Shown here one piece after another: positions 11,598 to 58,654 of a stretch of DNA of 64,000 nucleotides. The translations under genes and the position numbers were made by a program. The notes below the pieces were generated by a model. It was not told the origin of the DNA. It saw nothing but the letters and a program-made list of their open reading frames with translations, and did no database searches. Source of the DNA: Thermoproteus sp. (lineage in GTDB: Archaea; Thermoproteota; Thermoprotei; Thermoproteales; Thermoproteaceae); the NCBI GenBank assembly GCA_038893495.1, contig JAWARJ010000001.1, forward strand, positions 1,353,824-1,417,823. The letters run 5' to 3'. The number at the start of each line of letters is the position of its first letter. Position 1 is the first letter of the stretch.

Positions 11598-11636
11598 ATG
11601 TCCCGAAGAGGCCCAACATATAAAGTTGGCGCAATG

Positions 11637-11644
11637 TATTAATA
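11637..11644 (+). promoter_or_regulatory. TATA box of the tRNA-Ser 5' half
   Basis: TATTAATA is centred 26 nt upstream of the first base of the tRNA 5' half at 11666. That is the expected archaeal spacing between a TATA element and the transcription start. Confidence 0.55.
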
Positions 11645-11665: not shown

Positions 11666-11703
11666 GCCCGGGTGGCCGAGCTGGTCCAAGGGGCGTGCCG
11701 GCC
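11666..11703 (+). tRNA. 5' half of a split (trans-spliced) tRNA-Ser(GCU)
   Basis: The 5' exon is 11666-11688: acceptor strand GCCCGGG (11666-11672), TG, D-stem GCC and a D-loop containing GAGCTGGTCC. No anticodon or T-arm follows. Instead 11690-11703 (GGGGCGTGCCGGCC) is exactly complementary, with one G-U, to 55742-55729 on the minus strand. Between exon and helix lies the bulge CAA (11687-11689), preceded by GGTC (11683-11686), which pairs with GACT (55728-55725). A second bulge, CGA (55724-55722), and the outer helix GCT/GGC complete a canonical 3-nt/4-bp/3-nt bulge-helix-bulge. Cutting between bulge bases 2 and 3 joins 11688 to 55722 and restores the D-stem GCC/GGC. Confidence 0.85.
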
Positions 11704-32278: not shown

Positions 32279-32305
32279 TAGCCATATTGGGCATATAGTA
32301 TTACC

Positions 32306-32317
32306 TATGTACAAGTA
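32306..32317 (+). promoter_or_regulatory. TATGTACARRTA element, copy 1
   Basis: TATGTACAAGTA lies 40-51 nt before the ATG of the first cytochrome-cluster gene and 12 nt upstream of its TATA box (ATTTTATAC). The same 12-mer consensus recurs at 36513 and 39248. The palindromic TGTACA core suggests a dimeric regulator site. Confidence 0.5.
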
Positions 32318-32356
32318 GATTACGTAGGATTTTATACAGATACATAGAGCATACTT

Positions 32357-33991
32357 ATGAAATGGATAGGCTTGATGCCGTTATTGGTAGCGCCGGTTCT
32401 CTACGCCAACGCGGTCCTATACCCAATTACTGGCATAAAAATAGAAATTATTAATACTACCATATTTGGATATATAACTGATTATAGGATCAATATTTAT
32501 GTAAATAATACTGACCTATCTAAAATATTAAAAACAGATGTTTACACTATGGCGATTCTATCATACGGATTTAATTGCACAATTCCCGGCAATATAACCA
32601 GGACCTATACTGTCGACATACCGACAGGCTCCATCTCTATATCTCTCATAGATCTGGCCTCTTCTTATTGTTATGGAGAGCCCACAAGGATAACAAAACT
32701 TTCCCTCTCGGTATTAGTCCTTGGCAGATTTGACAATCTGCCCAAGTGGTATAAGGCGATAGATCTACTGGGAGAATTGAAATCTGTGGGCTATTCCGAC
32801 ATAATAACGCCTGAATCTAGACTAGTTAAATTCACTGTAGAGAAGGTAATAGTAGATAAAGACAGATGGGTCTCCTACCTACTAAAGAGCTACTACGGCC
32901 AGTATTTTGGCGAGATCGACGTAGTTGCTTGGAGTAATTTCAGTTCCGCCTTCGCGATAAGGGTGTCCTACACCCCATTTTACTACTGGCTGACTAAATA
33001 TCTCGACGTTAAGCTCTACGTAAACGGGACTACGTTCGACTTAAACAATGGAGATGCGATACTGCCCCTCTACGCCCCCATATATGGCAATATCTCTATG
33101 TATTTAGTACTCACGGCCTTGAAGTTCTCCACGAAGATATATGTCAACAACGACACGGGGCCGATAAGGCTGGTGCCCATGGAGGTAGTAAGAAGAGGCC
33201 TAGAGGGCAATATCACCTCCTTCGAGAAGATAGGCAAAAACGCATATAGGGTCATCATTTCCCTTAACGACACGATAGACCCAGCCTCTACGACCTTCAA
33301 GTTAGTGCCTTCTACAGGGTCCGTCCAGGTCATGTACTTCGCACGGGTAGTCGGACCTAGGACGGTCGAGCTCTATTTATTCCCCTACAGGCCGGGGGCC
33401 CTATTCGGCGAACTTTACATCTCAATGGATAGAATTGTAATTAGGAAGGAGGGCGCCGTGCGGTTGGAGCTTTCATTTGACGAAGGCTATGAGCCGGAGG
33501 CAGTCTATACGCCTCTGTCAGTCCAGCGCTATGCCCCCTCGGCGACCGATGTGTCGAAAATTCTAGAAATCCATGTGGTTAATGTAAATAGCACCGAATT
33601 CCTCTATGTGTACCTAAACATGACGGCAACTCCTAGAGATCCCCACAAGCCTGTCCTCATAGTCCCTATAGTCCTGTACGAGACCTACTACGGCCCTATG
33701 ATATACGACGTAATCAACGCGACGGGAGTTACGCCTATCGCCGTGGCTCAAAATAAATCGACAGGCATAACGCTTTTAGTTCCGCTATACCTAATGGAGA
33801 GCCCCCAGGAGGTCGACTTGTTGATATATGCAGAGAACATAAGGAGCTACAAGATCCTAGACCTAGAGGCATATGCATATGCCTTTCCCGACTACGACGG
33901 CTCTGTTATTCCATATCTGTCGGCCGTATCGTTGGCACTAATCGCTTTGGCGTTCAGTTTGGCGAGAAAACGCCCTGGGGAGGGACCATGA
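32357..33991 (+). CDS. Secreted membrane-anchored protein of the cytochrome cluster, unknown
   Basis: 544 residues. An N-terminal signal (LMPLLVAPVLYANAVLY) is followed by a long beta-rich ectodomain with many N-x-S/T sites. The C-terminus has one membrane helix (VIPYLSAVSLALIALAFSL) and a basic tail RKRPGEG. The first 400 nt are richer in A and T than neighbouring genes. It overlaps the octaheme cytochrome gene by ATGA, so it is the first gene of that operon. I do not recognise a family; there are no heme motifs. Confidence 0.75.
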   Translation: MKWIGLMPLLVAPVLYANAVLYPITGIKIEIINTTIFGYITDYRINIYVNNTDLSKILKTDVYTMAILSYGFNCTIPGNITRTYTVDIPTGSISISLIDLASSYCYGEPTRITKLSLSVLVLGRFDNLPKWYKAIDLLGELKSVGYSDIITPESRLVKFTVEKVIVDKDRWVSYLLKSYYGQYFGEIDVVAWSNFSSAFAIRVSYTPFYYWLTKYLDVKLYVNGTTFDLNNGDAILPLYAPIYGNISMYLVLTALKFSTKIYVNNDTGPIRLVPMEVVRRGLEGNITSFEKIGKNAYRVIISLNDTIDPASTTFKLVPSTGSVQVMYFARVVGPRTVELYLFPYRPGALFGELYISMDRIVIRKEGAVRLELSFDEGYEPEAVYTPLSVQRYAPSATDVSKILEIHVVNVNSTEFLYVYLNMTATPRDPHKPVLIVPIVLYETYYGPMIYDVINATGVTPIAVAQNKSTGITLLVPLYLMESPQEVDLLIYAENIRSYKILDLEAYAYAFPDYDGSVIPYLSAVSLALIALAFSLARKRPGEGP

Positions 33992-34719
33992 AGTGGGGCG
34001 AAGCCGTCAGGGGCTTTAAAGAGGCCTTGAGGAACCCGTTGGTGTTGGCGTTATTGATAATAGTCGTAATAGTGGTGGCCGCGACGGCGGGGTTCTTGTG
34101 GCTAAAATACGACCCTGGAGCCAACGGCTTTTGTACTGCATGCCACAGCATGGTTCCGTTCTATTCGGCCATAGAGTCGACGCCCCACGGAGCTTTTAAC
34201 TGCCATGTCTGTCACGAACTTACAGTATCGGAATTACCGCAACTGGCGGGGGAGTTGTGGGTCTATATAACCGAAAACCCATCTCCCAGCGATATAGCCA
34301 AACGCGCCCATATAACCATGTTGGACCAATGTCTAGCCTGCCATCCACAAGCTCTGGGCGATCTACAGATACACTCTGTACATAGCGGTCTGGTCCAAAC
34401 ACTCGGGACTTGTACTATTTGCCACAACCCGCATAATTTAGCCCAGACGCCCGCCAAATGCCAAACCTGCCATAGATTAGACGAAGTCCTAAATACCCAC
34501 CTAGAATTCCATACCTATGCCTGGCAACAAGTCCAAATGGGCAATATACAAGTGTGCGCCCAATGCCACGGCCCTACAGTTACGTGGGGCGTGCCGTGGG
34601 GACCCGACTGCACAAACGGCATTGCGCGCGGCATGTCTTGTGTGGCGTGTCACGGCCCCACGGCGGCTCCGTGGAGCCCATCCGACTTCGTAGACTGTAC
34701 TAGATGTCACGCCAAGTAG
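33988..34719 (+). CDS. Octaheme membrane cytochrome c, NapC/NrfH-like
   Basis: 243 residues. One N-terminal membrane helix (about 18-40, LVLALLIIVVIVVAATAGFL) is followed by eight CXXCH sites: CTACH, CHVCH, CLACH, CTICH, CQTCH, CAQCH, CVACH and CTRCH. The beginning GFCTACHSMVPF...HGAFNCHVCH matches the NapC/NrfH quinol-dehydrogenase pattern, but those have four or five hemes. It probably takes electrons from membrane quinol to extracytoplasmic partners. It overlaps the neighbours on both sides (4 and 16 nt). No terminal reductase is recognised nearby. Confidence 0.9.
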   Translation: MKWGEAVRGFKEALRNPLVLALLIIVVIVVAATAGFLWLKYDPGANGFCTACHSMVPFYSAIESTPHGAFNCHVCHELTVSELPQLAGELWVYITENPSPSDIAKRAHITMLDQCLACHPQALGDLQIHSVHSGLVQTLGTCTICHNPHNLAQTPAKCQTCHRLDEVLNTHLEFHTYAWQQVQMGNIQVCAQCHGPTVTWGVPWGPDCTNGIARGMSCVACHGPTAAPWSPSDFVDCTRCHAK

Positions 34720-36506
34720 CGTTGAGTTTTTTGCTCCTAGCCGCTTTAGTGCGGGCCGCCACCTACGGAGTGGGGATATATCAAGGCGTGGGGGTGCCCG
34801 TCTCGGTGTCGATAGAGCTCACGCCGGGAAACGGCACTATATACGTCCCCGGCTACACCGCCAGCTCCGACTTCTTGTATTCGGCTAAAGTGGCCATATG
34901 GGAGGCCGCCCTCAACGCGGGAGTCCAGCCATGGCGGTACAACTACATCATAGAGATAAAGCCGCTCGGCAATATGTCGACCTACATCGGAGGCCCCAGT
35001 CTTTCGCTTACCATATACCTCGAAGCTCTAAATGTATTTACAGGGAGGCAAGGCAACTCGTCGATAGCGTACAGCGGCGCCGTGGGGCCAGGCGGAGTCG
35101 TAGACCTAGTTGGCAATATAAGAGAGAAAGCCCTGGGCCTCCAAAATAGCGGCTTTAAGGCGTTCGCCTTCCCGGTCTTAGAGCTGTTCACATATAGGTT
35201 CGAACTGCGCCCTGTCTACTACGGCGTCTACGCCACGGTGATAAGGCAATTGACGGCAATCCCGACGAATCTGACCGGCGTCCATATAGGGCTGATCGAA
35301 GTGGGAAATGTATATCAAGCGGCCGCCGTCGCGCAAGGCCTTCCGTACAACATAACGGCCGATCTATACGCCCTAGACCTCAAAATCAACGCGAGCCATA
35401 TCAACTACAGCGGCTTTGCGGCCCCCGCGCTGTCCCTATTAAAAAACGAGACGGCGACGCTCATAAACGGCACGCTAGACGCCATGAAGGCCCTAAACAT
35501 ACAAGGCGGCACATATCTCGATCTAGTCCGACAAGCTCTGGCATATTTAGAGGCGGGCGAGAGGACGCCGGACCTCAGGCCAGAACTTTGGGTTCAAGCC
35601 TACGGCACAGCGGCGACGGCCTATTATTATCTATTATTACTCTACAACAACACGAGAGCCGTGAGGGAGATGGAGGTCCGCTACTACGCCCTTCTGTCTG
35701 TTGCCGTCGAGGCGCAAAAATTCGTGAAGCCGGACTTGCAGAACCTCTGCGAGGCCGCATATTCGCGTATGTATTTACACCTAGCTAACCAGTCCCTAGA
35801 CCAGCTGAAGGCCTATCTCGACTACTACCTCTGGACGGGCTCTCCGACCTATGCGGCCGCTGCCGTATATACCTACGCCACCATTACGGAATACCTCTGG
35901 AGGAGTATAATCTACGCCTCTTTCGCCGCCAACGGCAGCGGCGTGGATCTAAACGCCACCTACAATAGATTTACGGACTACCTCAACGCGGTGGTTAGAT
36001 ACGCCGAGCTCTACAGCGAAGAGACCAACATCTATTCGACACAACTAGTCGGCGGCGCCGAGACTAATTACTATCGGATGTTAGAAACAGACGACCGGCT
36101 AGCCGCGCTCGGATATGGAACCGAGGCGCTGGCCTACGCCATGGCCTATTTCGCGATACATCCAGGCTATCCCAACACCACTGCCGTCAAATATGCGTTT
36201 TTCGCCGATTCGGCATACCACAAACTCGGCCGGTTGACCTATACACAGATAGTAGACCTCAAAACTGCAAGTCTTGCAGAACTCAACGAGACGAGGGTGC
36301 TATACCTCTCTAGGGCCTTGGCGTGCGAATACTTGAGGGAATTCGCCGAGCCCGGCCCCGCCGTAGAGGCCGCCTCGGCCTCCACAACTACGTTGCCTAC
36401 GCCCAACAGCGAAAATACGGGAGGACTTTGGGCCTTGGCGGTGGGAATCGCCGCCTGTATGGGGGCCTGTCTAGGCGTCTTGGAGCGCAGAAGGAGGCCA
36501 GACTGA
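34704..36506 (+). CDS. Secreted, membrane-anchored Lon-like (S16) protease-domain protein
   Basis: 600 residues. A signal peptide (QVALSFLLLAALVRAA) precedes a Lon-type proteolytic domain. The nucleophile region is YIGGPSLSLTIYLEAL (Ser of GPS), and GPGGVVDLVGNIREKALGLQ supplies the catalytic Lys, ending FKAFAFP, as in archaeal predicted secreted serine proteases. About 350 helical residues follow and a C-terminal helix (GLWALAVGIAACMGACLGVL) anchors it. It has no ATPase domain. It may act on misfolded or unmatured exported cytochromes (inference from operon position). Confidence 0.75.
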   Translation: MSRQVALSFLLLAALVRAATYGVGIYQGVGVPVSVSIELTPGNGTIYVPGYTASSDFLYSAKVAIWEAALNAGVQPWRYNYIIEIKPLGNMSTYIGGPSLSLTIYLEALNVFTGRQGNSSIAYSGAVGPGGVVDLVGNIREKALGLQNSGFKAFAFPVLELFTYRFELRPVYYGVYATVIRQLTAIPTNLTGVHIGLIEVGNVYQAAAVAQGLPYNITADLYALDLKINASHINYSGFAAPALSLLKNETATLINGTLDAMKALNIQGGTYLDLVRQALAYLEAGERTPDLRPELWVQAYGTAATAYYYLLLLYNNTRAVREMEVRYYALLSVAVEAQKFVKPDLQNLCEAAYSRMYLHLANQSLDQLKAYLDYYLWTGSPTYAAAAVYTYATITEYLWRSIIYASFAANGSGVDLNATYNRFTDYLNAVVRYAELYSEETNIYSTQLVGGAETNYYRMLETDDRLAALGYGTEALAYAMAYFAIHPGYPNTTAVKYAFFADSAYHKLGRLTYTQIVDLKTASLAELNETRVLYLSRALACEYLREFAEPGPAVEAASASTTTLPTPNSENTGGLWALAVGIAACMGACLGVLERRRRPD

Positions 36507-36512
36507 ATATTT

Positions 36513-36524
36513 TATGTACAGATA
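36513..36524 (+). promoter_or_regulatory. TATGTACARRTA element, copy 2
   Basis: TATGTACAGATA lies 40-51 nt before the ATG of the ccmF-like gene, at exactly the same distance from the start as copy 1, and 7 nt after the stop of the preceding gene. Confidence 0.5.
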
Positions 36525-36563
36525 TTATAACAAGGAATATTAGTTGAGTCAACGTTATGGGCC

Positions 36564-39245
36564 ATGGATCTACACCCAACAAGCTATCTCTTCTTAATAT
36601 CAATTGCACTATATCTCATATACTTTATCGCATCGTTTTTACGGATATCTAAAAGAGCGCGCGACATCCTCTTTGCCGGAGCTCTCGTTTTGCTTGTAGC
36701 AAGCTGGGCCTACTACCTCTACTCATTCGTAATACAAGACTTCTCGCTCGAGCCAGTCGCGTTGGACACTAACGTGGGGATGCCGCCACTATTGAGGATA
36801 GGGGCCTCTTGGAGCGGATCTGGGTCCAGCTTGTTCCTATTCCTCTTGTTTTTTGAGCTTTCGGCGTATTTCCTGTCTAAACACGCTGGGGAGTGGTTTG
36901 GAAGGTCGGCCTCTCTAGTGGCGTTGGGCGTAGGCGCCTCCATAGTGCTCTACGGCGCCTTCAACAAGTTCTCGGGGGGCACTGTGGGGGCCGGGCTGAA
37001 TCCTTTACTTCAGAGCTTTTGGGTGTTAATACATCCGCCTCTGGTTATGGCGGGCTTCGCGCTCATAGCCGCCTCCGCCATGGCGTTGTTGTCCAGGAGG
37101 TCTCCCGCCGCCGAGAGGGCGCTCCATTTAGGGGCTGCGGTCTTATTTTCCGGGATGGTAATAGGCGGATATTGGAGCTACGTCACCTTCGGGTGGGGCG
37201 GATATTGGGCGTGGGACCCCGTCGAGACGGCCCAATTGATGGCGCTAATCGTCGCCGTGGCTACATTCCACGTGCCGCAGAGCCTAGAGCCCTTTAGGCG
37301 TCCCTCGTTGTATTTAGCGGTAAGCGCGGTCTTCCTGGCGCTATTTGTGACGCGTACAGGGATGAGTCCGCTACACGGCTTCGCGTCTCCAGGCGCGGGC
37401 GCCTATGTCCTCCTACTGGCGTCTTTAATACCTCTAGGCGGCGCGCTCAGAGGCCTATTGACGGCGCAATTCTCCAGGTTGCCGCAAGCGCCAGAGGTCC
37501 TCTCACGCGCGTTAATGTCTCTGGCCATTTTTGCTGCCGCCGTGTTGCTCTACGGCTCTTTGTTTGTGCCGGCCATAGGCGCGGCGCTTGGGCTCAACGT
37601 ATCTCCGCCCCAACAAGACGACGGCATGTGGTTCTACAACACCGCGTTGGTGCCTCTAGTCCTCTTCACGCTGGTCTTAGCCCCGTTGGCTTTCCTCAAT
37701 AAGGGCAGGAGGGCGTTTAGGGCGTACCTAATTGTGGGGACAGCCGCGACTGTCGCCGTCGTGATGGCGGCGGCATACGGCCTATTCGACTACTCGCCCA
37801 AATCGCACCTATTGACAAACATAGCAGTGGCTACTGCCCTAGTGTGGTCCGCATTGGGAGGCGCCGTCCTTGTGCTCTTCGCCGCGAGGCCCGGCAAGCG
37901 GCTGGTGGGGCTGTTGCACCTAGCCCTATTGGTGTTCTTCGTAGCTGTAGTCCTCAGCATGCCCTACGCCTACAACCGCTCGTATTTCGTAGACTACTCC
38001 ATGGAGCCCGGCGCGTCGGCGAATATCTACGGCGTGCAGACAGCCCTAAAGGGCCTGAAGTTCGGAATGCTCCAAGGCTCAGTGGACTTGGGTCCATATG
38101 CTGGAGGCGCCACCTACACCTATGCGAGCTACGCGGTGGCTTATGGAGGCATGTTCGCCCAACAGGTAGCGCCGATGCTCACAGACGCCAAGGCCAGAGC
38201 CTTCTCGAACCCGGCGCTGGGGCTCCTATTGAATTTATCGCAAGAGGCGCCTATAGCTCTAGGCAACGTCGACATAGTCGTAAACTCCACATCGTCGCTA
38301 AGGCTCATAAACGCGTCGTTGTGGATATATACACAACACTCCGGGACGGGCCTACTCTCAATTTTGGCCTACCTCGTAGCGAATAGCGCCGAGACGAAAG
38401 GCCTTGTTGTCGGCAACGCCACAGTGGTTAGACTGTCAAAGCCGCTTTTATTACCCGTCGGCGGAGGCCTCTTGAATATATCAGGCCCTGTGGAGATAGG
38501 CAACGAGAGTTTTTGGTATCTACTGCCCATGGTGGCCTACCTCTCGGCGGGAAATCAGACCATCGGCCTGCCCTACGGGTTAGACCTCAACTTGACCCTA
38601 TACTACATGTCCCTCTCGCCGCAATACCCCATATACTATGCGATCAATTCCCCCTATTGGAATATACTAACCGACCAGCAAAAACTCGCCGCCGTGGCGC
38701 CCGCCGTAGGCGTCGTTGAGGCGCCGACGCAAGTGCCCCGCGGCAGCTATATGGAAGTAGATATGGGGATAGACGGGTCGGTCAGGAAAGCCGTGATAAG
38801 ATATGAAGTAAACGGCGAGGTCTCTGGAGTACACGGGCTTGTGGTGTCCGTATTGACGGTCCCGAAGGGCCTCGGCGACGTGTATATGGCGGTCTTCGCC
38901 CCCTCCGAATCCACACAATTCGCCCAGTACCCAGCGCCAATGTTGTATTACGTCAAGAACATAACAGCCTCTATGCCTCCAGACAAATCGCTGGCGGTAT
39001 TGGCCTTAATAGCGTCGGGGTTCTACCTAGATCAACTCCGCAATATGGACATAAACACAGCCGCATCATACCTCTTCAACGCCATGATGGACCTATATGG
39101 AGCCGCCTCCAGCTTCGACCCAGCCGCATTAAATGCGGTAGACATATCGGTCAAAATAGTCCCCTTCGTGAACCTCCTATGGGCCTCGGCCGCTGCCGTA
39201 ACGGCGCTGTTGATAGCCTACGCCGCAATGGAGCGCAAAGAATAA
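36564..39245 (+). CDS. ccmF: CcmF-like cytochrome c heme lyase with extra ectodomain
   Basis: 893 residues. The first 480 or so hold the multi-helix CcmF/CcsA core with the tryptophan-rich heme-handling motif TFGWGGYWAWDPVETAQLM and preceding histidine-bearing loops (LIHPPLVMAGF, LFVTRTGMSPLHGF). Residues about 485-865 form an additional extracytoplasmic domain with many N-x-S/T sites, before a final helix (LLWASAAAVTALLIAYA). CcmF joins heme to apocytochrome CXXCH sites. Bacterial CcmF is about 640 residues, so the extra domain is notable. Confidence 0.85.
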   Translation: MDLHPTSYLFLISIALYLIYFIASFLRISKRARDILFAGALVLLVASWAYYLYSFVIQDFSLEPVALDTNVGMPPLLRIGASWSGSGSSLFLFLLFFELSAYFLSKHAGEWFGRSASLVALGVGASIVLYGAFNKFSGGTVGAGLNPLLQSFWVLIHPPLVMAGFALIAASAMALLSRRSPAAERALHLGAAVLFSGMVIGGYWSYVTFGWGGYWAWDPVETAQLMALIVAVATFHVPQSLEPFRRPSLYLAVSAVFLALFVTRTGMSPLHGFASPGAGAYVLLLASLIPLGGALRGLLTAQFSRLPQAPEVLSRALMSLAIFAAAVLLYGSLFVPAIGAALGLNVSPPQQDDGMWFYNTALVPLVLFTLVLAPLAFLNKGRRAFRAYLIVGTAATVAVVMAAAYGLFDYSPKSHLLTNIAVATALVWSALGGAVLVLFAARPGKRLVGLLHLALLVFFVAVVLSMPYAYNRSYFVDYSMEPGASANIYGVQTALKGLKFGMLQGSVDLGPYAGGATYTYASYAVAYGGMFAQQVAPMLTDAKARAFSNPALGLLLNLSQEAPIALGNVDIVVNSTSSLRLINASLWIYTQHSGTGLLSILAYLVANSAETKGLVVGNATVVRLSKPLLLPVGGGLLNISGPVEIGNESFWYLLPMVAYLSAGNQTIGLPYGLDLNLTLYYMSLSPQYPIYYAINSPYWNILTDQQKLAAVAPAVGVVEAPTQVPRGSYMEVDMGIDGSVRKAVIRYEVNGEVSGVHGLVVSVLTVPKGLGDVYMAVFAPSESTQFAQYPAPMLYYVKNITASMPPDKSLAVLALIASGFYLDQLRNMDINTAASYLFNAMMDLYGAASSFDPAALNAVDISVKIVPFVNLLWASAAAVTALLIAYAAMERKE

Positions 39246-39247
39246 TA

Positions 39248-39259
39248 TATGTACAAATA
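39248..39259 (+). promoter_or_regulatory. TATGTACARRTA element, copy 3
   Basis: TATGTACAAATA starts 2 nt after the stop of the ccmF-like gene. A TATA box (ATAATATATAATAGG, about 39291-39305) follows 32 nt further on, upstream of the next cytochrome. Confidence 0.5.
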
Positions 39260-39339
39260 GTATATTAATAGAACATCTTACATAAAGACTGATAATATAT
39301 AATAGGAAGGCTTAAATGGATTTCTTGTATAGCTCTCAC

Positions 39340-40398
39340 ATGAATAAAAGCCCAATTCTAGCAGTCCTAGCCATATTGGCACTAGCCGCCGGCGCGGCGG
39401 CCTACGGCCTATACAACCACCCACCCCACTGCGACGCATGCCACAGCCAGCCTTACGCCAACTACTCCGGCTCTCTAGTCGGCCTACTCAGCGGCCCGGC
39501 CGCCGGTAGTTGCAACACGGCGTCCGCCGAATGCGTCTGGAGCCACCAGATACTAACTGACGGACAGGCGTGGTTGCAGTGCCAGAACTGCCACAGCGCT
39601 ATATACAGTAGCATTATGTCCTCTGTCCACTCGTCTCTACAAGGCACCTACGGCTGTGCATGTCACGCAGTGATGCATGTCGGCTACGGCACACCCACTG
39701 CTGGCTATGCGGCTTGTATTTATTACTACAAGCCCAGCACCAACGCCCCCGCGGCAGTAGCTGCTGGCAGCTTCACCCCCACAAGCCTATGTTTCTATGG
39801 GACTCCCGGCGGCACATACTACTTCTTCAACGGCACGCCTATGACTACGCCGCCGCAAGCTCTAGCAGTAACTCCCGGATATATAGCCAATGCAACTGCT
39901 GGAACTGTTAAGATATTGCCTGGTAGGGGTAGCGAATACAGTGGCGACGTCTTCCAGGTATTGACCTGGACTCTTGCCGCCTACAATGCGCCGCCAGCAC
40001 CTTACGAACATGCCTTAACTGAAGAGCAACCCAATGGAGAGACCATAATAGTGGGCGTTTATGACATACACACCGGCACCTTCATACTGGTAAGGCCTTG
40101 GGGTCCCTACAACTCATTTAGGTATACATCTCCCTATGAGGAGCCCGGCTGGGCCGCGTGTTTCAACTGCCACTTCATCTACCAAGGCCAGCCCACCGCC
40201 TTTAGCGTAGCCAAGATCGATGGAGTCTGGAAGATAGGCATACCTGAAGATGTATTTAAGTCGTTGACCGACCCCCACAATATACAGGTGCCTGCAGCTG
40301 CCGTTGAGGCCAAGCCCGTCTTCAACATGGCCGCCGCCGGCGCGGCCGCCGTAGTGGTGCTACTAGCCGGAGCCATATTGGCGCTAAAACGTAGGTAA
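39340..40398 (+). CDS. Multiheme cytochrome c with CXCH site
   Basis: 352 residues from the ATG at 39340; an upstream ATG at 39316 would lie before the expected transcription start. A signal helix (ILAVLAILALAAGAAAYGLY) leads into three CXXCH sites (CDACH, CQNCH, CFNCH) and one CXCH site in YGCACHAVMHVGYG. A C-terminal helix anchors it outside (FNMAAAGAAAVVVLLAGAIL). The segment from CQNCH to HVGYG is closely matched in the next gene product, so the two share a duplicated heme module. An electron-carrier role is likely. Confidence 0.85.
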   Translation: MNKSPILAVLAILALAAGAAAYGLYNHPPHCDACHSQPYANYSGSLVGLLSGPAAGSCNTASAECVWSHQILTDGQAWLQCQNCHSAIYSSIMSSVHSSLQGTYGCACHAVMHVGYGTPTAGYAACIYYYKPSTNAPAAVAAGSFTPTSLCFYGTPGGTYYFFNGTPMTTPPQALAVTPGYIANATAGTVKILPGRGSEYSGDVFQVLTWTLAAYNAPPAPYEHALTEEQPNGETIIVGVYDIHTGTFILVRPWGPYNSFRYTSPYEEPGWAACFNCHFIYQGQPTAFSVAKIDGVWKIGIPEDVFKSLTDPHNIQVPAAAVEAKPVFNMAAAGAAAVVVLLAGAILALKRR

Positions 40399-40415
40399 TA
40401 AACCCCTCCTTTTTC

Positions 40416-43163
40416 ATGTATTTACCTCCTCTCCTGATTACCTCTTTTTCTCTTGCCGCATCTATAGCGGTAAGACGTAGAGGGCTCTCTCTATTTCTTT
40501 ATGGAATTGGGGCGGGCGGCATCCTCGCCTTCTTTTTGGGCGGTCAGGCCGGGCCCTTCTGGCCTTTCGGCGTGGCTTCCGGCTTCTTGTACCTCGCATC
40601 TTCGGCGGCGCTTTACTACGGCAGGTTCATCTCAGCGTGGCTTCTAGGAGCCGCCGCATATGCCATAAACGGAATAGCCCACGCCGCCTTCGGCCAGTGG
40701 TACGACCTCTTTGGCGATATCTTCGGCGTAGCCTACTTGGCGTCTTTATGCGCTTGGGCGCTGGGCGGCGGCCGCCTCGCGCTCCTCGCGGCATCTCTGT
40801 CTGCCCTCTCGTCTATTATGTACGACTGGTCGGGCTCCGTCGCGGGGCTGGGCGGCGGGCCTTCAGCTCTGGCGTTCCTCATGGCGGCGCCTTTCGCGTT
40901 GGCCTATACGGCCGGCGGAGCGGCTAGGAACTTCACACATGTTGGGGCGGTCGTATCTACAGGAGTGTTCGTCATCCTCCTATATATATACATTTATATA
41001 TTCTCTAGGTCCGCCGCGCCGCCCCTAGGGGCGATAGGCCTCGGCGTCTTGGTCCTGTCAGCCATATGCGCATTGGCCTCTACGAGGCCCCGTGTGGCGG
41101 CCGCGGCGTTATTGATAGCGCTAGGCGTCTATCTGGCTTCGGGGCTAGTCATGCCGAATCCGATACTGAGGTCTATAGCCGTTGCCGCCGTGTTCCTGTC
41201 GTTTGCAACAGGGAGGACGCGCCTACTTGTAGGGGTATTGGCGTCTCTGTTTGTCCTAGCCGCCGCCTCTATGTGGGGGCCTCAGCTGGTTCCCTTCAAC
41301 GCTACATATTTCTTGCCTTTAAGCTTCGGCGCCAACGGCGTCCTGTTGGCTCAATCCCAACAGGGCCCCATCGCCGTGAAGAGCGCCGCTATTTCTTTCA
41401 GCGACTCGGCGGCTTCTATTAAGACTGTCTTGGCCTTCAATATAGATAGGGAGAGGATAGAGAGGACATACCTACTGCCCGTATCGATAGACGGCACCTC
41501 CATAAGGGATGTGTTCTTCGCCCCTCCTCATCTCGTATATGTGACTATAAGCGCAGGCGAGGACCTAGCCCAGTCGGTATACGCCGCCATATATCTAAAT
41601 AGGATCTTCGGGGTGTACAACGGAGCTGTTGGGACTATAAACGTCGAGTTGGTGGTATATCCCTATATGTTGGTCTTAGCAACATTAGTCTTCCTGTCTA
41701 TTTCTGTGTGGATTGCGGCCTACATGTTTAAAAAGCCGATCCGCTTGTTCTTTGTCCTATTTCTGCTTTTCTTGTTTGCCCACACGGCTCTGGGATACCC
41801 GATAAAAAGCGCCAACTGCAACGATTGCCACGGAGGGAGCGGCTGTCTTAGTTGCCATACGTCGACATATTTAACAAGCACGGCCCACGGCGTGTTGTCC
41901 AACGCGGTCCTATATAGATCTCCACCACCGTCTTCGCCTAACTACTGTGCCTGTCATTTTGGGGTATCTAGCACGACAGGAGGTGGGGGCATGGTGGGAG
42001 GGCCCGGCATGTCTCCGTCTTGCGCATGTCATGTGGTGATACATATAAACCTTACCAACCATGGATTTCAATTCCCGTCGGAGGTAGTAGTGGAGAACTA
42101 CTTGCCGACAGCTCAAAGCCCCTACGTCTCGCCTAGCCTTTACATTAAACAAGCTAAGTTGTGGTACAATTGCACCCGCGCGCCGGCTAACTGTCCGCCG
42201 AATTTACATCAATTAGTCACGTCGCTCTATTCGGCCGGATATACGCAAAATGTAGTGGTAGTGGCATTGTGGGATTGGTATAGAGGCGACGTGATACTGC
42301 CTCTGCCCGGAGGCGTGGGGCCCTCGGCTGTAGCTGGGGTATACGGAGAAGCGGCGGATTCCAGCTGGACTTCGTGTTTCAATTGTCATTTCGTTTATGT
42401 GAGCCCTTGGGCTGTGGGCGCTACAATAAATGCGACAAAACAGACTAATCCCGGTGCGTCTTTTATACAACACCCCGATTTGTGCCAACCGTGTCACGGT
42501 GTCCCTAAGAACGCAACGGACGTATCGCGCACCATATGGGCCCATAACATATATGGCTATAGCGCAAATGGGGCAGATGCTATTTGGAGCAATTGTGGGG
42601 TTTGCCATTCGGCTATAGCCTCGGTGGTGTCCTCTAGTGTACACTCGTCGATAGGTTGTGAGTGCCACGCGGTGGTCCATATGGGCTATTCCTATAATGG
42701 CATGTGGCTGGCGGGGCTTTATACCTTCGAGGGCTCTGGCGTCGGTGTGGCGCCGAGCTCCCTCGTGAGGGCTGTTCGGGTCTATACGCCATATAACGTC
42801 ACAGCGGGGGTCTCTCAGCTGGTCTCCTTTATTCTAGCTAAAACTCCAGGCGAAAACATAGAAGTGGGCCTTTGGGACGCCTATTTGAACGATTATGTGT
42901 CGACTTTACCGCTTGGGCCGGGCCCCGAGGCTGTCTGGGCTACGTGTTTTAGTTGCCACTTCATGTCTATAGACCCCAGTAAGTTCTCGGACCCCCACGG
43001 GATACAAGCCACGTCGATTGGTGTGGTCGAATTGCCGGCGGCGCCTCCGACCTCGACGACTCTAAGTATGAGCGGCTGGCGTGGCGGGACTGTGGGGGCG
43101 GCCGTCGTGTTTCTAATAGTCGCTTTGGGGGTATACATCCTATTCAGGAGGGATTCCAATTAG
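40416..43163 (+). CDS. Large membrane protein fused to a multiheme domain with CXCH sites
   Basis: 915 residues. The N-terminal part has about eight to ten membrane helices (1-275), then an ectodomain and another hydrophobic pair (about 425-465). The heme domain follows with six CXXCH (CNDCH, CLSCH, CFNCH, CQPCH, CGVCH, CFSCH) and three CXCH (YCACHF, SCACHVVIH, GCECHAVVHMGY). A final helix anchors the C-terminus. Two copies of the module CxxCHSAI...SSVHSS..GCxCHAVxH occur across this and the preceding protein. It may be a membrane-embedded electron conduit. I know no named family with this architecture. Confidence 0.85.
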   Translation: MYLPPLLITSFSLAASIAVRRRGLSLFLYGIGAGGILAFFLGGQAGPFWPFGVASGFLYLASSAALYYGRFISAWLLGAAAYAINGIAHAAFGQWYDLFGDIFGVAYLASLCAWALGGGRLALLAASLSALSSIMYDWSGSVAGLGGGPSALAFLMAAPFALAYTAGGAARNFTHVGAVVSTGVFVILLYIYIYIFSRSAAPPLGAIGLGVLVLSAICALASTRPRVAAAALLIALGVYLASGLVMPNPILRSIAVAAVFLSFATGRTRLLVGVLASLFVLAAASMWGPQLVPFNATYFLPLSFGANGVLLAQSQQGPIAVKSAAISFSDSAASIKTVLAFNIDRERIERTYLLPVSIDGTSIRDVFFAPPHLVYVTISAGEDLAQSVYAAIYLNRIFGVYNGAVGTINVELVVYPYMLVLATLVFLSISVWIAAYMFKKPIRLFFVLFLLFLFAHTALGYPIKSANCNDCHGGSGCLSCHTSTYLTSTAHGVLSNAVLYRSPPPSSPNYCACHFGVSSTTGGGGMVGGPGMSPSCACHVVIHINLTNHGFQFPSEVVVENYLPTAQSPYVSPSLYIKQAKLWYNCTRAPANCPPNLHQLVTSLYSAGYTQNVVVVALWDWYRGDVILPLPGGVGPSAVAGVYGEAADSSWTSCFNCHFVYVSPWAVGATINATKQTNPGASFIQHPDLCQPCHGVPKNATDVSRTIWAHNIYGYSANGADAIWSNCGVCHSAIASVVSSSVHSSIGCECHAVVHMGYSYNGMWLAGLYTFEGSGVGVAPSSLVRAVRVYTPYNVTAGVSQLVSFILAKTPGENIEVGLWDAYLNDYVSTLPLGPGPEAVWATCFSCHFMSIDPSKFSDPHGIQATSIGVVELPAAPPTSTTLSMSGWRGGTVGAAVVFLIVALGVYILFRRDSN

Positions 43164-43171
43164 TATTATAA

Positions 43172-44137
43172 GTGTTCACTATGGATAACAAGGCTTATAT
43201 GACGTATAGATATATAGCGTTTGTGTTCACACTCAAAGATTTTATATTACCGGCTTTAGCCGTAATAGATATAGGTACCGCTATTTGGCTTGTACAATTC
43301 GGCCCCTTTCCGTTAGTGGTAGATACGGGCGCCTCTACCGCCTATTTAAATGTATATGTCCACGTGCCGGGCTCGGTAGCTCTCTACGTCGCCGCGACTC
43401 TCGCCCTAATAGCGGCTCTATTGAGAAGAATTAGGATTATGGACTTCTCTGCATACGCCACAGCGGCTCTCGGCTGGTTTGCCTTCATAACGGGCACCAT
43501 TTGGGCCGCCGAGAGTTGGGGCTCCGCCTTGGCTCTAGACCCCAGACAGATGTCGGTGTTGGTCTTCGCGTTGATTTACAGCATATATCCTGCCGTCAAG
43601 AGGGGCGTAGAGGACCCCGAGAGGAGGGAGAGGCTGGCCAGGATCTATATAGCGGCCGGCTACGCCCTCGCCGTTTTGTCCCTCATAGCGCCGTATCTAG
43701 CCACTTCATTCCACCCAAGGCCTGGCACAACCATGGAGGGACCTCTAGGCGCGTATATGGGCCTACGCATCTTAATAGCGTTGGCGGTCTTCGCGGCGCT
43801 GGCGGCAGTCAGACCTCCCAGATTCGTCGCCTATATCTACCTGGCGGGCATCGCCGCCTCGTTAGTGCTCTTATACCCATGGTTCTTCTATTCTCCTGTC
43901 AGGGTCGTCAACGTCACCACGTCTTCGATAGGTCTTGCCGACGGCCGCGTGTTGGACATAAAGCCCTCTGCGGTGTTGTCCCCGGCTTTTGTCAACAACA
44001 CCCCAACTCTAGTGGGGAACTTCGTGGCGTTAATTGGCGGCGTCCCCCAACTCGTCAGGCACTACTCGGCTTATGTCAACTTAGCGCTTTATTGTGCCAC
44101 TATGTCTCTACTAGTTGAGGTTAGGAGGAGGCTATGA
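43172..44137 (+). CDS. ccmC: CcmC-like heme delivery protein
   Basis: 321 residues with about eight helices. The first heme His lies in YVHVPGSVALYVAATLAL. The WWD-like segment is diverged (TIWAAESWGSALALDPRQM). A second His is in ATSFHPRPGTTMEG, where bacterial CcmC has the NTLHQG loop. CcmC loads heme onto CcmE outside the membrane. ATG 43181 is an alternative to the GTG at 43172. It overlaps ccmE by ATGA. Confidence 0.8.
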   Translation: MFTMDNKAYMTYRYIAFVFTLKDFILPALAVIDIGTAIWLVQFGPFPLVVDTGASTAYLNVYVHVPGSVALYVAATLALIAALLRRIRIMDFSAYATAALGWFAFITGTIWAAESWGSALALDPRQMSVLVFALIYSIYPAVKRGVEDPERRERLARIYIAAGYALAVLSLIAPYLATSFHPRPGTTMEGPLGAYMGLRILIALAVFAALAAVRPPRFVAYIYLAGIAASLVLLYPWFFYSPVRVVNVTTSSIGLADGRVLDIKPSAVLSPAFVNNTPTLVGNFVALIGGVPQLVRHYSAYVNLALYCATMSLLVEVRRRL

Positions 44138-44511
44138 GGGGCGTAGTTGTGGCGGCTGTCTTGGCGGCGGTCTTCGCTGCGGTGGGCCTACTGTCCGTAT
44201 ATATGGGGTCGCCTATGGACGTATCAGATTTGGCTAAACTAAAGGGCCCGCCTGTCTCCGTCAAGGTCTCTGGGGCTTTTGGCGGGTATTGGATGTCGAA
44301 CGGCTACGTCTATATAAAACTCGTAGGGAGAGACGGCTTTTCGATAATAGCAGTCGCGCCGTATTCTGAAATAGTCAAGAGGGCCGGCACGTCTTTCCAG
44401 TTCAGCAACACCGTGGTGGTGGAGGGCATATACAACCCGGCCACCAGGACGCTTAACGTGACGACTATACTGCAGGGGTGCCACTCGGCCTACTACAGCC
44501 CAGTGTCATGA
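44134..44511 (+). CDS. ccmE: CcmE-like heme chaperone, cysteine type
   Basis: 125 residues. An N-terminal membrane helix (VVVAAVLAAVFAAVGLLSVY) carries an OB-like domain (PPVSVKVSGAFGGYW, TVVVEGIYNPATRTLNV). The C-terminal heme-binding motif is LQGCHSAYY: CxxxY replaces the bacterial HxxxY, a variant described for archaeal and some deltaproteobacterial CcmE. Heme would be held covalently by the Cys before transfer through CcmF. ATGA overlaps link it to ccmC and ccmA. Confidence 0.85.
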   Translation: MRGVVVAAVLAAVFAAVGLLSVYMGSPMDVSDLAKLKGPPVSVKVSGAFGGYWMSNGYVYIKLVGRDGFSIIAVAPYSEIVKRAGTSFQFSNTVVVEGIYNPATRTLNVTTILQGCHSAYYSPVS

Positions 44512-45080
44512 TATTGGTGGAGGGGCTATGGAAGAGGTTCGGCGACTTCTGGGTCCTCCGCGGCGTCAATCTGAAGGTGAACAGTATAGTCACGTTGATA
44601 GGCCCCAACGGGTCTGGGAAGACCACGCTCGTGAGGATAATAGCGGGGCTTTTGGAGCCCAGCAGGGGGAGGGTTCTGGTGGACGGAATGAGGCCGAAAG
44701 TGCCGGCGGGGGTGTTGGGCGTGGTGTTCCACAGCCCCATGCTCTACCCCGAGCTGACTGTGGGGGAGAACTTAAGGCTCTTCTCGAAGCTGGCGGGCGG
44801 GAAGCTGGAGGGGTGCCCCTTGGGGGTCTGCAAGGTTTTGGACAGGCCCGTGAGGGCTTTGAGTTTCGGCTGGAGGAGGAGAGTAGACATAGTGAGGGCC
44901 CTACTGCCGGACCCACCCAATTTGGTCATAGACGAGCCCACGACGGGCCTAGACCAAGAGGCGAGGGGCGAGCTCGCAGACATCTTGAAGTCCAGAGAGG
45001 CCGTACTTCTAACCTCGCCGTTCCCGTTGGGGATAGGAAGGGAGCTACGCCTAGAAGAAGTGCAATGTTTGAATTGTTGA
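44508..45080 (+). CDS. ccmA: CcmA-like ABC transporter ATPase
   Basis: 190 residues from the ATG at 44508, which overlaps the ccmE stop. Walker A is GPNGSGKTTL, the signature LSFGWRRRVDIVRALL replaces LSGGQ, and Walker B is NLVIDEPTTGLD. Energising release of holo-CcmE from CcmC is the known role of CcmAB. The protein ends with a Cys pair (EEVQCLNC), unusual for this family. It overlaps ccmB by 16 nt. Confidence 0.85.
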   Translation: MILVEGLWKRFGDFWVLRGVNLKVNSIVTLIGPNGSGKTTLVRIIAGLLEPSRGRVLVDGMRPKVPAGVLGVVFHSPMLYPELTVGENLRLFSKLAGGKLEGCPLGVCKVLDRPVRALSFGWRRRVDIVRALLPDPPNLVIDEPTTGLDQEARGELADILKSREAVLLTSPFPLGIGRELRLEEVQCLNC

Positions 45081-45613
45081 GAGCAGATATGTTGTCGGCA
45101 TTTAGGAGGACAGATGAGTTGACGTATCTCATAGTTGCGGCTGTTGCTATGGGCCTTATAGGCTCTCTCGCGGGGGCTTTCGCCGTATATTTAGTGGCCC
45201 TGGCGGAATCCCAATTGGCCGCCTATATTTTCATCTTGAGGGATTGGGACCGCGGCCTCCTTGAGGGCCTCGTGTATTATGTGGGACATATGGGAGTTTA
45301 TATATCTCGACTGGTCCTTACCGCTTTGTTCTCGGCAATGGCCTCAGCACTTGCGGCTGTATTGGTCAGTCCGAGCTATGTGCTTCTAGCGGTACTCGCC
45401 GCGATCCTTACATCTTCTTCAAGTGCCCTTGCGGCCATGTTGACCGCTTACGGCGGCCTTTCGGCCCCTGCGGGAGCCGCCATGTCTGCAGTGTTGTCGC
45501 TACCGCCGTTATTACATATGGCCGAGACGGGCGCAGGCGCGCCCGCCGCCTACGTGATATGTTTTGTGGTCGCAATTGGCCTTCTGGCCTCTGAGATGTT
45601 GGATAGGCCATGA
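45065..45613 (+). CDS. ccmB: CcmB-like ABC permease
   Basis: 182 residues from the ATG at 45065 inside the ccmA end. There are six hydrophobic segments and the N-terminus FELLRADMLSAFRRTDEL has the cytoplasmic coupling-helix look of CcmB. It is smaller than bacterial CcmB (about 220). The pairing with CcmA and position between ccmA and the thioredoxin-CcdA gene are the main evidence. An ATGA overlap joins the next gene. Confidence 0.75.
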   Translation: MFELLRADMLSAFRRTDELTYLIVAAVAMGLIGSLAGAFAVYLVALAESQLAAYIFILRDWDRGLLEGLVYYVGHMGVYISRLVLTALFSAMASALAAVLVSPSYVLLAVLAAILTSSSSALAAMLTAYGGLSAPAGAAMSAVLSLPPLLHMAETGAGAPAAYVICFVVAIGLLASEMLDRP

Positions 45614-46770
45614 GGGCGGCTATATTCCTCGTCGTGTTGCTGTCCGCTGGCTTGGCTTTGGCCTATTCTTACATCAAGATGGGTTTAATTAACTTTACAG
45701 AGGTTTCATCTCCATATGAAGTGTCGGGAACATTCCTTCTATACATATATAGTCCTATATGTGATGAATGTAAAATGTTTGAAGAACAAGTCTTGTCGAG
45801 CCCCTCTGTGGCATCTCTCCTCTCCGGACTGAACCTATATGCGCTTAACGCCTACGCGCACCCCCTGCCGGGCCTACAGGTAAAAGTCGAGGGACAGGTG
45901 GTATATGTCGACATAGACGCGCAGACCGTTAAATATGTCGTGGCTAACGGGACTAGGTACTTCCCGATAGAGGGCACGCCTGCCGTATTAATTGGACGCG
46001 TCAAGAATGGAACTATTACGTTATTGGGCTTCTGGATAGGCGGCGTCCCTCCATCCAATCAGAGGATGGACGTCCAGTTCTCTCAATTCGTCAAGGAGGC
46101 GTTGGGCATAAGTCCTTCGGCAAAGGCCCAGGCGGCCGTACTGCCGTCGTTATTCGCCGCGTTGGCGACGTCGGCTGTCATGGGATTTCTGAGCGCCTTC
46201 TCGCCTTGCGTGTTGCCTGTGTTGTCGCTGGCCGGCGTGACCTATTTGGCTAGGAGGAGCCTCTGGAAGATGTTGGCGGGCTTAGTGACGTCGTTTTTGT
46301 TGTTTAGCGCTATCCTCGCCTCTTTGGGATCTGCGCTCGTGCCTTTGAGGCAGATAGTGGCTACTATCGGCGGCTCCATCTTGGCGGCTCTCGGCCTTAC
46401 TCAACTCGTGGGGCGTCTAAACGTCGAGTTCTCGAGGCTCGCCTCTTACATCCAGACGGCGGCCTTTAAGAGAACTCGCGGCGCTGGGGACTTTCTGTTG
46501 GGCGCGTCGCTCGGCGCCGTCTGGCTTCCTTGCGTATCGCCTTATGCGGGCGTGGCGATAGCCGCGACGTTGTACTCGCTGGCGGGAAGCCCCGTGGACG
46601 CCTTTATCTCTATTGCGCTATATGGGGCTTGTCTCGCCGCGGCGGTGTATTTAATTGTAAGGGGCCTAGTCAAAATAGGGAAGAAGATTGGCTCGATGCG
46701 GCACCTAGAGCAAATAGTAGGCGTTATAGCCATAGCATTGGGGGCGTATATAATATGGACGTCTCTATGA
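45610..46770 (+). CDS. Thioredoxin-like domain fused to CcdA/DsbD membrane reductase
   Basis: 386 residues. A signal helix, then an extracytoplasmic thioredoxin-fold domain (about 35-170) with YSPICDECKMFEEQ (CxxC) and the cis-Pro region EGTPAVLIGRV. The six-helix CcdA part has the paired cysteines AFSPCVLPVLSLAG and VWLPCVSPYAG. It would carry reducing equivalents across the membrane and keep apocytochrome cysteines reduced, taking over the roles of CcdA plus CcmG/CcmH, which are not found separately. It overlaps hemA by ATGA. Confidence 0.85.
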   Translation: MRAAIFLVVLLSAGLALAYSYIKMGLINFTEVSSPYEVSGTFLLYIYSPICDECKMFEEQVLSSPSVASLLSGLNLYALNAYAHPLPGLQVKVEGQVVYVDIDAQTVKYVVANGTRYFPIEGTPAVLIGRVKNGTITLLGFWIGGVPPSNQRMDVQFSQFVKEALGISPSAKAQAAVLPSLFAALATSAVMGFLSAFSPCVLPVLSLAGVTYLARRSLWKMLAGLVTSFLLFSAILASLGSALVPLRQIVATIGGSILAALGLTQLVGRLNVEFSRLASYIQTAAFKRTRGAGDFLLGASLGAVWLPCVSPYAGVAIAATLYSLAGSPVDAFISIALYGACLAAAVYLIVRGLVKIGKKIGSMRHLEQIVGVIAIALGAYIIWTSL

Positions 46771-47942
46771 ACCTAGTCGACAAGCTAGTGGGGCTCTCCT
46801 TGACCTATAGGAAGCTGGACTCGAAGAAGCTCGGCGAGATAGCCAATAGGGTGCGGAATGTATGCGCCAGCCCCAAATACCCAATTTTCGTCCTACATAC
46901 CTGCAATAGGGTCGAAGTCTACCTCTACGACGCGCCTCACGAATATGTGGAGGAGATAAAGTCCTACTATGCGCCCTATGTTGATAAAGTTGAGGTATAT
47001 CGCGGCGTTGCGGCCGCCCAACACCTCTTTGCGGTTGCCGCCGGGCTCGACTCCATGTTGATAGGCGAGACCGACGTGTTGGGACAATTGGAAGAGGCCT
47101 ACGACTCGCAGGTGAGGAAGGGCACCCTCAAGGGCCTGTTGAAAGTCGTCGTTGAACATGCAATACACGTGGGTAAGAAGGTGAGGACCTCTACAGGCAT
47201 ATCTAGAGGGCCGAGGAGTTTAAGCTCTCTTTCCGTTGAATATCTCAAGCGGCTTTATGGAGACCTTTCTGCGATGGCCTTTTGTATAGTCGGCGCGGGT
47301 TCCGTCGGGAGGGGCGTGGCTAAGGAGCTTCTAGAATCTGGCGCCGCCAAAGTGGTCGTGTTGAATAGAACGGTGGAGAAGGCCCTCGACCTACCTCAGA
47401 TAGGGATAGAGGTGCGGCCCCTCACCCAAGAGACATTACGTTGGTGTCTCCTCGATTTCGATGTGGTCTACACCGCAATTAGTTCTTTCGAGCCCGTGAT
47501 AACCTCGGTGCCGGACGGCGCCAAGGTCAAAGTGATAGTGGACTTGGGAGTCCCGCGTAACGTTGCCTCCGACCTCTCCGTGACGGTGCTCACTCTCGAC
47601 GACATGAGGGGGCTCGCTGAGGAATACAATAAGTTGAGGAGAGCCGAAGTGGAGAGGGCTTGGGAGATTGTGAAGAACGACGTGGCTCTACTTGAAACGC
47701 GGCTCCGAAAGAAGTGGGTAGATGAGACAATTTCAGAGATCATGGCGACGGCTCTTTCAGCTGCTGAAGAGGAGGGGCGGAGGGCCGGATGCGAAGGAGC
47801 AATTCTGGCTGCCAGGTCGACGGCGAAGCGGGTATTACTGCCCGTAGTGGAGCAATTGAAATACATGGCCGAAAATGGAAACTTGGAGCTAGTCAGATCT
47901 ATAATAGAGTTCTTAGGTAATAGTTATGAGCGTCGCAAGTAA
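46767..47942 (+). CDS. hemA: Glutamyl-tRNA reductase
   Basis: 391 residues from the ATG at 46767 that overlaps the previous stop; ATG 46755 is an alternative. The active-site Cys is in LHTCNRVEVYLYD, substrate contacts are in GLDSMLIGETDVLGQLEEAY, and the NADPH site is FCIVGAGSVGRGVAKELL. It catalyses the first step of C5 tetrapyrrole synthesis, reducing glutamyl-tRNA to glutamate semialdehyde. Coupling to cytochrome c maturation genes links heme supply to heme export. The remaining hem genes are not in this window. Confidence 0.95.
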   Translation: MNLVDKLVGLSLTYRKLDSKKLGEIANRVRNVCASPKYPIFVLHTCNRVEVYLYDAPHEYVEEIKSYYAPYVDKVEVYRGVAAAQHLFAVAAGLDSMLIGETDVLGQLEEAYDSQVRKGTLKGLLKVVVEHAIHVGKKVRTSTGISRGPRSLSSLSVEYLKRLYGDLSAMAFCIVGAGSVGRGVAKELLESGAAKVVVLNRTVEKALDLPQIGIEVRPLTQETLRWCLLDFDVVYTAISSFEPVITSVPDGAKVKVIVDLGVPRNVASDLSVTVLTLDDMRGLAEEYNKLRRAEVERAWEIVKNDVALLETRLRKKWVDETISEIMATALSAAEEEGRRAGCEGAILAARSTAKRVLLPVVEQLKYMAENGNLELVRSIIEFLGNSYERRK

Positions 47943-48489
47943 GACTACAATTCCTGTAGAGAAGGACGTAGCGCAGGAGTTTTCTCAGTTGGCCAAATCT
48001 CAGGGATTTTCGGTAGTTCGACTGGCGACAGACGCGTTGAAATTAACTACAGAACTGTTAAAGAGGGGCATAAGCCCTGCCGCTATAATCGACATAGTTA
48101 AACTGTTCGAAAAGGTAATGGCCTTCGACGCAGTGCCAGTGCCTTTAAGCTTCTTGGAGCTACTCGCCGAGAAGTGGGGCGTATGCGATGACGAGAACGT
48201 CGAAAAGACGTTAAGGGAGATGGGCCAAAAGTTCGGAACGATCTTAGTCGAGGAGTTTAGGACCTTCGGCGAGCTCCTCCAAGTGGTGTCTCAGATATCT
48301 CTACTCATGCCTACAGCCCGTTTGAGCTATGTGAAGTCGGGCAACTTGTGGCGAATAGTATTCATACCGGCCGGAGAGCGCTCGGCTAAATGTTTTGTCT
48401 ATTTCGCCGAAGAGTCCATAAAGCAATTTAAATGTAGAACTAAAATCGAATATTTAAGTACTCATATAGTAGCGGAAGTAATGTGTTAA
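47926..48489 (+). CDS. RHH-like protein with extra C-terminal domain, copy 1
   Basis: 187 residues. The start TTIPVEKDVAQEFSQLAKSQGF followed by VRLATDALKLTTELLKRG looks like a ribbon-helix-helix domain. The rest (about 60-187) is an alpha-beta domain with DENVEKTLREMGQKFGTILV and NLWRIVFIPAG, with cysteines in GVCDD, SAKCFVY, QFKCRT and the final MC. It overlaps hemA by 17 nt and so is probably cotranscribed. A heme- or redox-responsive regulator of the cluster is an attractive but unproven idea. Confidence 0.6.
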   Translation: MSVASKTTIPVEKDVAQEFSQLAKSQGFSVVRLATDALKLTTELLKRGISPAAIIDIVKLFEKVMAFDAVPVPLSFLELLAEKWGVCDDENVEKTLREMGQKFGTILVEEFRTFGELLQVVSQISLLMPTARLSYVKSGNLWRIVFIPAGERSAKCFVYFAEESIKQFKCRTKIEYLSTHIVAEVMC

Positions 48490-48537
48490 ATATAGCGTGT
48501 TAATAAGATTTTTAACTGTATTAACTCATTATAGTTC

Positions 48538-48978: not shown

Positions 48979-49023
48979 TTTTTCTCTAGTTAGAAATTAA
49001 AAGCCCTATACGGAGTTGAGGGC

Positions 49024-55608: not shown

Positions 55609-55655
55609 CGCTTTACATATTTAAGTAAAGCGGAATAAAGACTGTAGTAAAGCGG
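55609..55655. repeat. Three GTAAAGCG units (one inverted, two direct)
   Basis: CGCTTTAC (55609-55616) and GTAAAGCG (55625-55632) form a perfect 8-bp inverted repeat around ATATTTAA. GTAAAGCGG occurs again at 55647-55655, 22 bp from the first direct copy, i.e. two helical turns. The set adjoins the 3' end of the split-tRNA half. It could be an operator around the AT-rich box or part of an old integration site. Confidence 0.5.
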
Positions 55656-55760: not shown

Positions 55761-55769
55761 ATTTTTAAG
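55761..55769 (-). promoter_or_regulatory. TATA box of the tRNA-Ser 3' half
   Basis: CTTAAAAAT on the minus strand lies 19-27 nt upstream of 55742, the first base of the leader helix, so this half has its own promoter and no 5' tRNA part precedes it. Confidence 0.55.
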
Positions 55770-55787
55770 CTTAACGTCGGCCTTGCG

Positions 55788-56585: not shown

Positions 56586-56650
56586 AAATACGAGGGAGGC
56601 CGAATTTATAAGGATCCGCCGGCGCAAGGGATTGGGGCTTTAGGATAAAT

Positions 56651-57579: not shown

Positions 57580-57594
57580 CCTCCACCGATGTCC

Positions 57595-58653: not shown

Positions 58654-58654
58654 A

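Follow-up and report, generated by a model that had tools for sequence, protein, structure and literature searches.

Two fragments of a serine tRNA lie 44 kb apart and on opposite strands (+ and -) in the genome of Thermoproteus sp., a heat-loving archaeon. Are they the two halves of one gene whose transcripts are joined in trans, as proposed in an earlier note on this DNA, or the debris of an ordinary gene? The genome is a single contig (1,995,394 bp, 99.99% complete); the window, i.e. the whole 64-kb stretch of DNA that was analysed, covers its positions 1353824-1417823. Our main reading, to which we give a probability of about 0.95, is that tRNA-Ser(GCU) is a genuine split gene, expressed by trans-splicing: own promoters, leader pairing, bulge-helix-bulge (BHB) cutting and ligation.

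Joined in silico, the two halves give a class II serine tRNA

The two halves and the end of the 3' half are the following.

11666-11688, + strand: 5' half of tRNA-Ser(GCU), tRNA positions 1-21, GCCCGGGTGGCCGAGCTGGTCCA (exact string match)
55661-55722, - strand: 3' half of tRNA-Ser(GCU), positions 22-73 (exact string match)
55658-55660, - strand: encoded CCA end, directly after G73 of the 3' half

The string matches place both halves, to the base and on the same strands, where the earlier note had put them. The 5' half contains the acceptor strand 1-7, the D stem and the D loop up to A21; the 3' half runs from A22 to G73 and contains the anticodon loop CTGCTAA, the long variable arm and the T arm. 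Joined in silico, they are called tRNA-Ser(gct) by ARAGORN, which recognises no tRNA at either half locus alone. The joined molecule carries the class II features, i.e. a CCCC-GAAA-GGGG variable arm together with the GCU anticodon and the G73 discriminator. Thus the claims that each half lacks the remainder and that together they form a complete class II tRNA both hold. Neither ARAGORN nor Rfam at gathering score detects a tRNA in the 64-kb window, which is the expected outcome because the genes are halves.

The flanks of the halves rebuild a bulge-helix-bulge at the junction 21/22

The sequences that flank the two halves are complementary.

11690-11703, + strand: 3' trailer of the 5' half, helix strand GGGGCGTGCCGGCC of the 14-bp intermolecular helix
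55729-55742, - strand: 5' leader of the 3' half, partner strand GGCCGGCACGTCCC of the same helix
11683-11686, + strand: BHB core strand GGTC, paired with GACT 55728-55725 (sequence, duplex fold)
55725-55728, - strand: BHB core strand GACT (sequence, duplex fold)
11687-11689, + strand: 3-nt bulge CAA, predicted cut 11688/11689 (sequence, T. tenax junction)
55722-55724, - strand: 3-nt bulge CGA, predicted cut 55723/55722 (sequence, T. tenax junction)

The 14-bp helix described earlier is indeed found; it is GC-rich and consists of 13 Watson-Crick pairs and one G-U pair. When position pairs of this window are drawn at random, the fraction that shows 14 consecutive pairs in a fixed register is 4e-6. 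In the duplex fold both the BHB core and the helix are paired. The BHB drawn in the earlier note stands, with its core GGTC/GACT and its bulges CAA and CGA. Its outer exon helix has no more than 3 bp and competes with the D stem; in the unconstrained co-fold optimum the D-arm bases are partly paired in another way, the 14-bp helix being retained.

A cut between the second and third bulge bases generates GGUCCA/AGGC, which is exactly the junction of the T. tenax tRNA (GGTCCAAGGC); a cut one base earlier does not reproduce it. The predicted joined sequence across the junction reads ...GGUCCA/AGGCGCGGG..., in a tRNA with C4 and G69. The junction thus falls between A21 and A22 (21/22 is our own numbering), at the 3' edge of the D-loop in which it had been located.

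Promoter-like motifs and processing

A promoter PWM was trained on 29 intact tRNA genes from this genome (consensus AAAACTTAAAAA), in which the motif starts at a median position of -33 (n=29). Each half is preceded by a TATA-like element.

11633-11644, + strand: TATA-like element of the 5' half, AATGTATTAATA, starting at -33 from the tRNA 5' end
55762-55773, - strand: TATA-like element of the 3' half, TAAGCTTAAAAA, starting at -31 from the leader helix

The motif of the 5' half is weak, with a score of 10.6 that is in the top 0.06% of the window sites and below all 29 intact genes. That of the 3' half is strong: its score of 17.4 exceeds those of 15 intact tRNA promoters out of 29. It starts at -31, counted from the base with which the leader helix opens, so the transcript is predicted to start close to the helix. 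The TATA box at the right spacing announced for each half thus has its counterpart in a TATA-like motif on both sides. The halves of the other split tRNAs (see below) have promoter-like motifs at -32 to -35. These motifs are consensus matches, and they suggest that the halves are transcribed.

Archaeal split tRNAs are defined, among other features, by a heterotetrameric (alpha-beta)2 splicing endonuclease. In this genome one tRNA_int_endo gene scores well above the Pfam cut-off and would encode the catalytic subunit; the structural subunit may be encoded by a second gene, whose match is weak (E = 0.06). Four other features that define such tRNAs are seen in the sequence of tRNA-Ser(GCU): two loci that together encode a full cloverleaf and have no intact copy, a GC-rich complementary trailer and leader, a BHB where exon and leader meet, and a promoter-like motif before each half.

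The pathway that we propose is as follows. Two promoters, one per half, would drive transcription; the trailer of the 5' half and the leader of the 3' half would pair over 14 bp, rebuilding a canonical BHB; the splicing endonuclease would cut both 3-nt bulges after their second base; a tRNA ligase, presumably of the RtcB type, would join A21 to A22; and the resulting mature tRNA-Ser(GCU) would be aminoacylated.

No intact copy, and a concerted change in the acceptor stem

The earlier note had proposed checking that no intact tRNA-Ser(GCU) gene exists, and the search was run genome-wide. The GCU anticodon arm (CTGCTAAGYCCR) occurs a single time in the genome, in the 3' half. BLAST of the genome with the joined tRNA returned the two halves and three other serine tRNAs, with anticodons GGA, UGA and CGA (read by inspection), and no intact Ser(GCU) gene elsewhere. 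On these searches tRNA-Ser(GCU) is predicted to be the only tRNA of the genome for AGC/AGU codons. These codons are in use, with 137 of the 527 Ser codons counted in 13 ORFs of the window, and the cell must therefore make this tRNA.

The joined tRNA is 97% identical to the intact T. tenax gene, and its 5' half differs from that of T. tenax Ser(GCU) only by C4 instead of G4. The acceptor pair 4-69 is here formed by C4 of the 5' half and G69 of the 3' half. It is G-C in all 45 serine tRNA occurrences examined (32 of them GCU), which come from relatives and from the other Ser genes of the same genome, a few genomes entering through two loci. Since the pair is C-G here and G-C everywhere else examined, both loci changed together. 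Complementary changes 44 kb apart would be hard to explain unless both products pair in one tRNA; the products of the half-genes are almost certainly joined as RNA.

At least six further predicted split tRNAs in the same genome

At least six further tRNAs of this genome are predicted to be split: Val(GAC), Val(CAC), Val(UAC), Gly(CCC), Arg(UCG) and one CAU tRNA, candidate elongator Met or Ile2. Their halves were traced via low-scoring tRNA hits, a D-arm pattern scan and BLAST, then by leader matching, and each of the six pairs is called a tRNA once joined.

1810.2-1810.4, 455.7, 1044.6 and 458.9 kb of the genome: Val split loci (L119, L068, L113 and L095)
554.6 and 1812.3 kb: Gly(CCC), L100 with L072, 13-bp helix
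460.3 and 461.6 kb: CAU tRNA, L096 with L071, 12-bp helix
486.3 and 487.9 kb: Arg(UCG), L098 with L069, 9-bp helix and GGUG/CACC core

The 3' halves of the three Val tRNAs bear a common leader, GGGGCGCCACGGC, complementary to GCCGTGGCGCCCC in two 5' halves with identical exons (at about 458.9 and 1810.4 kb), one of which precedes the Val(GAC) 3' half by about 190 bp. Homology puts the Val junctions at about 25/26, those of Gly and CAU at about 29/30 and that of Arg at about 30/31. In Val(UAC) and CAU a cis-intron has to be removed as well. The halves of the Arg and CAU pairs are on the same strand with just 1.3-1.6 kb between them; given this closeness, the one basis for two separate transcripts is the promoter-like motif that precedes the 3' half. 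With the split tRNAs counted, the anticodon set is complete at 46 (by inspection).

One more Arg pair, L108 with L110, was tried and rejected: the leaders do not match and the 3' fragment is decayed. L108 (1094.9 kb) is an orphan Arg-like 5' half, and no partner leader can be recognised after it. L110 (1083.8 kb) is a palindrome, long and perfect, with its right arm extending into the decayed 3' part of an Arg(UCU)-like tRNA. A decayed Arg-like tRNA pseudogene with an apparent promoter is found at 119.5 kb (L084).

The surroundings of the 3' half and other readings of the locus

Synteny breaks off at the 3' half, which lies upstream of a diphthamide-synthesis gene; the place beside this gene is taken by another one in Thermoproteus sp. 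CP80, UBA157 and Pyrobaculum. Two features were recorded next to the 3' half.

55788-56114: HepT-like gene, beside the 3' half
55609-55633: palindrome CCGCTTTAC-N-GTAAAGCG, downstream of the 3' half

The genome has six copies of the palindrome, and all of them closely follow a tRNA 3' end (two at Glu, two at Gln, one at a bare Gln 3' fragment and one at the Ser 3' half); the palindrome is possibly tied to integration at tRNA genes. The synteny break, the HepT-like gene and the palindrome are hints of mobile-element activity near the 3' half. Two intervals of the window, 32300-49000 and 55800-61900, have no counterpart in the syntenic region of Thermoproteus sp. CP80. Elsewhere in the genome the bare tRNA-Gln 3' fragment lies 9.7 kb from tRNA-Gln(UUG) (1468.0 and 1477.7 kb; L061, L118), with the palindrome after each; the stretch between them resembles an integrated element, about 9.7 kb long.

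The two Ser halves could then be att-site remnants of such an element rather than a functional gene. Remnants of this kind do occur: the relative G007 has, 8 kb from its intact Ser(GCU) gene, a bare 3' fragment of that tRNA (L142), probably left by integration, this genome has its Gln fragment, and the rare palindrome that follows the Ser 3' half recurs at the tRNA-Gln sites. But att fragments duplicate part of an intact gene, and the genome has no intact Ser(GCU); the Ser halves abut at A21/A22 with zero overlap; and remnants would have neither 14-bp complementary flanks in BHB register nor the concerted change at 4-69. We therefore regard this origin as very improbable. The same low probability is assigned to an assembly error or strain rearrangement that would have split one ordinary intron-containing gene, the halves being contiguous in the cell. 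The synteny break beside the diphthamide-synthesis gene could be read in this way, but the assembly is one contig, six other tRNAs of the genome are split alike, and a contiguous gene would have no need of the two correctly spaced promoter-like motifs, one before each half, that are seen here. Lastly, archaeal tRNA-derived fragments exist, and the halves might be transcribed mainly into tRNA-half small RNAs while another tRNA reads AGC/AGU; this is the least probable reading, as the remaining Ser tRNAs (GGA, UGA, CGA) cannot read AGY by known rules.

Origin of the splits

A trans-spliced tRNA-Ser(GCU) being the reading retained, how did it arise? For Val and CAU the congener T. uzoniensis is informative: it has intact genes with short cis-introns at the sites that are split here, and the ends of these introns, GAAAGCC...TTCCC and AGGGGCG...CCCCGCGTA, match the trans leaders. 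The Val and CAU splits therefore look recent and derived from introns, judging by these matches. The Val gene of T. tenax, another congener, has no intron. A derivation of splits from introns has also been argued for other archaea (PMC3218864, PMC4390854).

For Ser(GCU) no intron at 21/22 was found in any relative examined, so the usual intron-to-split history is not seen. The genes of T. tenax and T. uzoniensis have no intron; introns elsewhere in the molecule occur in G003 (anticodon loop) and G005 (anticodon loop and T loop). A cis-intron near 26/27 is present in G028 and G043 (L144, L145): non-canonical introns do exist in class II tRNAs of Thermoproteales. A single inversion through the tRNA does not explain the split, for the genes that flank the intact Ser(GCU) of T. 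uzoniensis are at 770.5 and 717-719 kb here and adjoin neither half.

Comparison with known split tRNAs and meaning

The archaeal split tRNAs known are class I, with junctions at 25/26, 29/30, 30/31, 32/33 or 37/38 (PMC3218864, PMC4090602), and a review of 2015 knew of no class II tRNA that is split (PMC4390854). Our literature search, in which subscription journals were thinly covered, found no later report of one. The earlier note, which knew of no case of this isoacceptor with a D-loop junction, is consistent with the record, which lacks 21/22, and tRNA-Ser(GCU) is probably the first class II split tRNA.

Caldivirga maquilingensis, like Nanoarchaeum equitans, has six split tRNAs (PMC3218864), the highest number reported so far for an organism. 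Those of C. maquilingensis (Gly, Ala and Glu; Fujishima 2009, reviewed in PMC4090602 and PMC4390854) resemble the present case by the order, Thermoproteales, by GC-rich complementary leaders and a BHB junction, and by halves common to isoacceptors, as in Val here. This species differs in that all six are class I with junctions 25/26, 29/30 and 37/38, whereas here a class II tRNA is split at 21/22 and the split tRNAs number seven in all; its Ser(GCU) gene is intact and intronless. Lys(CUU) of Staphylothermus and Asp(GUC) of Aeropyrum and Thermosphaera share with our case a 13- to 14-bp GC-rich trans helix, the hBHBh' form, separate promoters and a recent lineage-specific split, and the Thermosphaera halves are also on opposite strands; in contrast, these are class I tRNAs with junctions 30/31 and 37/38, one per genome (PMC3218864). 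N. equitans likewise has BHB trans-splicing, distant halves and one half common to isoacceptors, but in a reduced symbiont genome, with class I only and junctions 30/31, 32/33 and 37/38 (PMC3218864). A D-loop junction (20/21) is known from the type I permuted tRNAs of Cyanidioschyzon merolae, a eukaryote in which one transcript carries the halves in reversed order, and not two genes (PMC3978253).

With moderate confidence we propose that this genome has the largest known set of split tRNAs (seven: Ser GCU, Val GAC/CAC/UAC, Gly CCC, Arg UCG and CAU), among them the first split in class II and the first archaeal D-loop split, and that Val and CAU came to trans-splicing via pre-existing introns and Ser(GCU) without a visible intron stage. 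The tRNA-Ser(GCU) gene is presumably essential, so its processing would have to be efficient. The 2015 review argues for a late evolution of class II tRNAs from the lack of class II splits (PMC4390854); Ser(GCU) would remove the exception on which this argument draws, and would extend the list of archaeal split sites by one in the D-loop. Within one genus the same Val tRNA is intronless in T. tenax, intron-bearing in T. uzoniensis and split here, and thus the transition from intron to split becomes directly testable.
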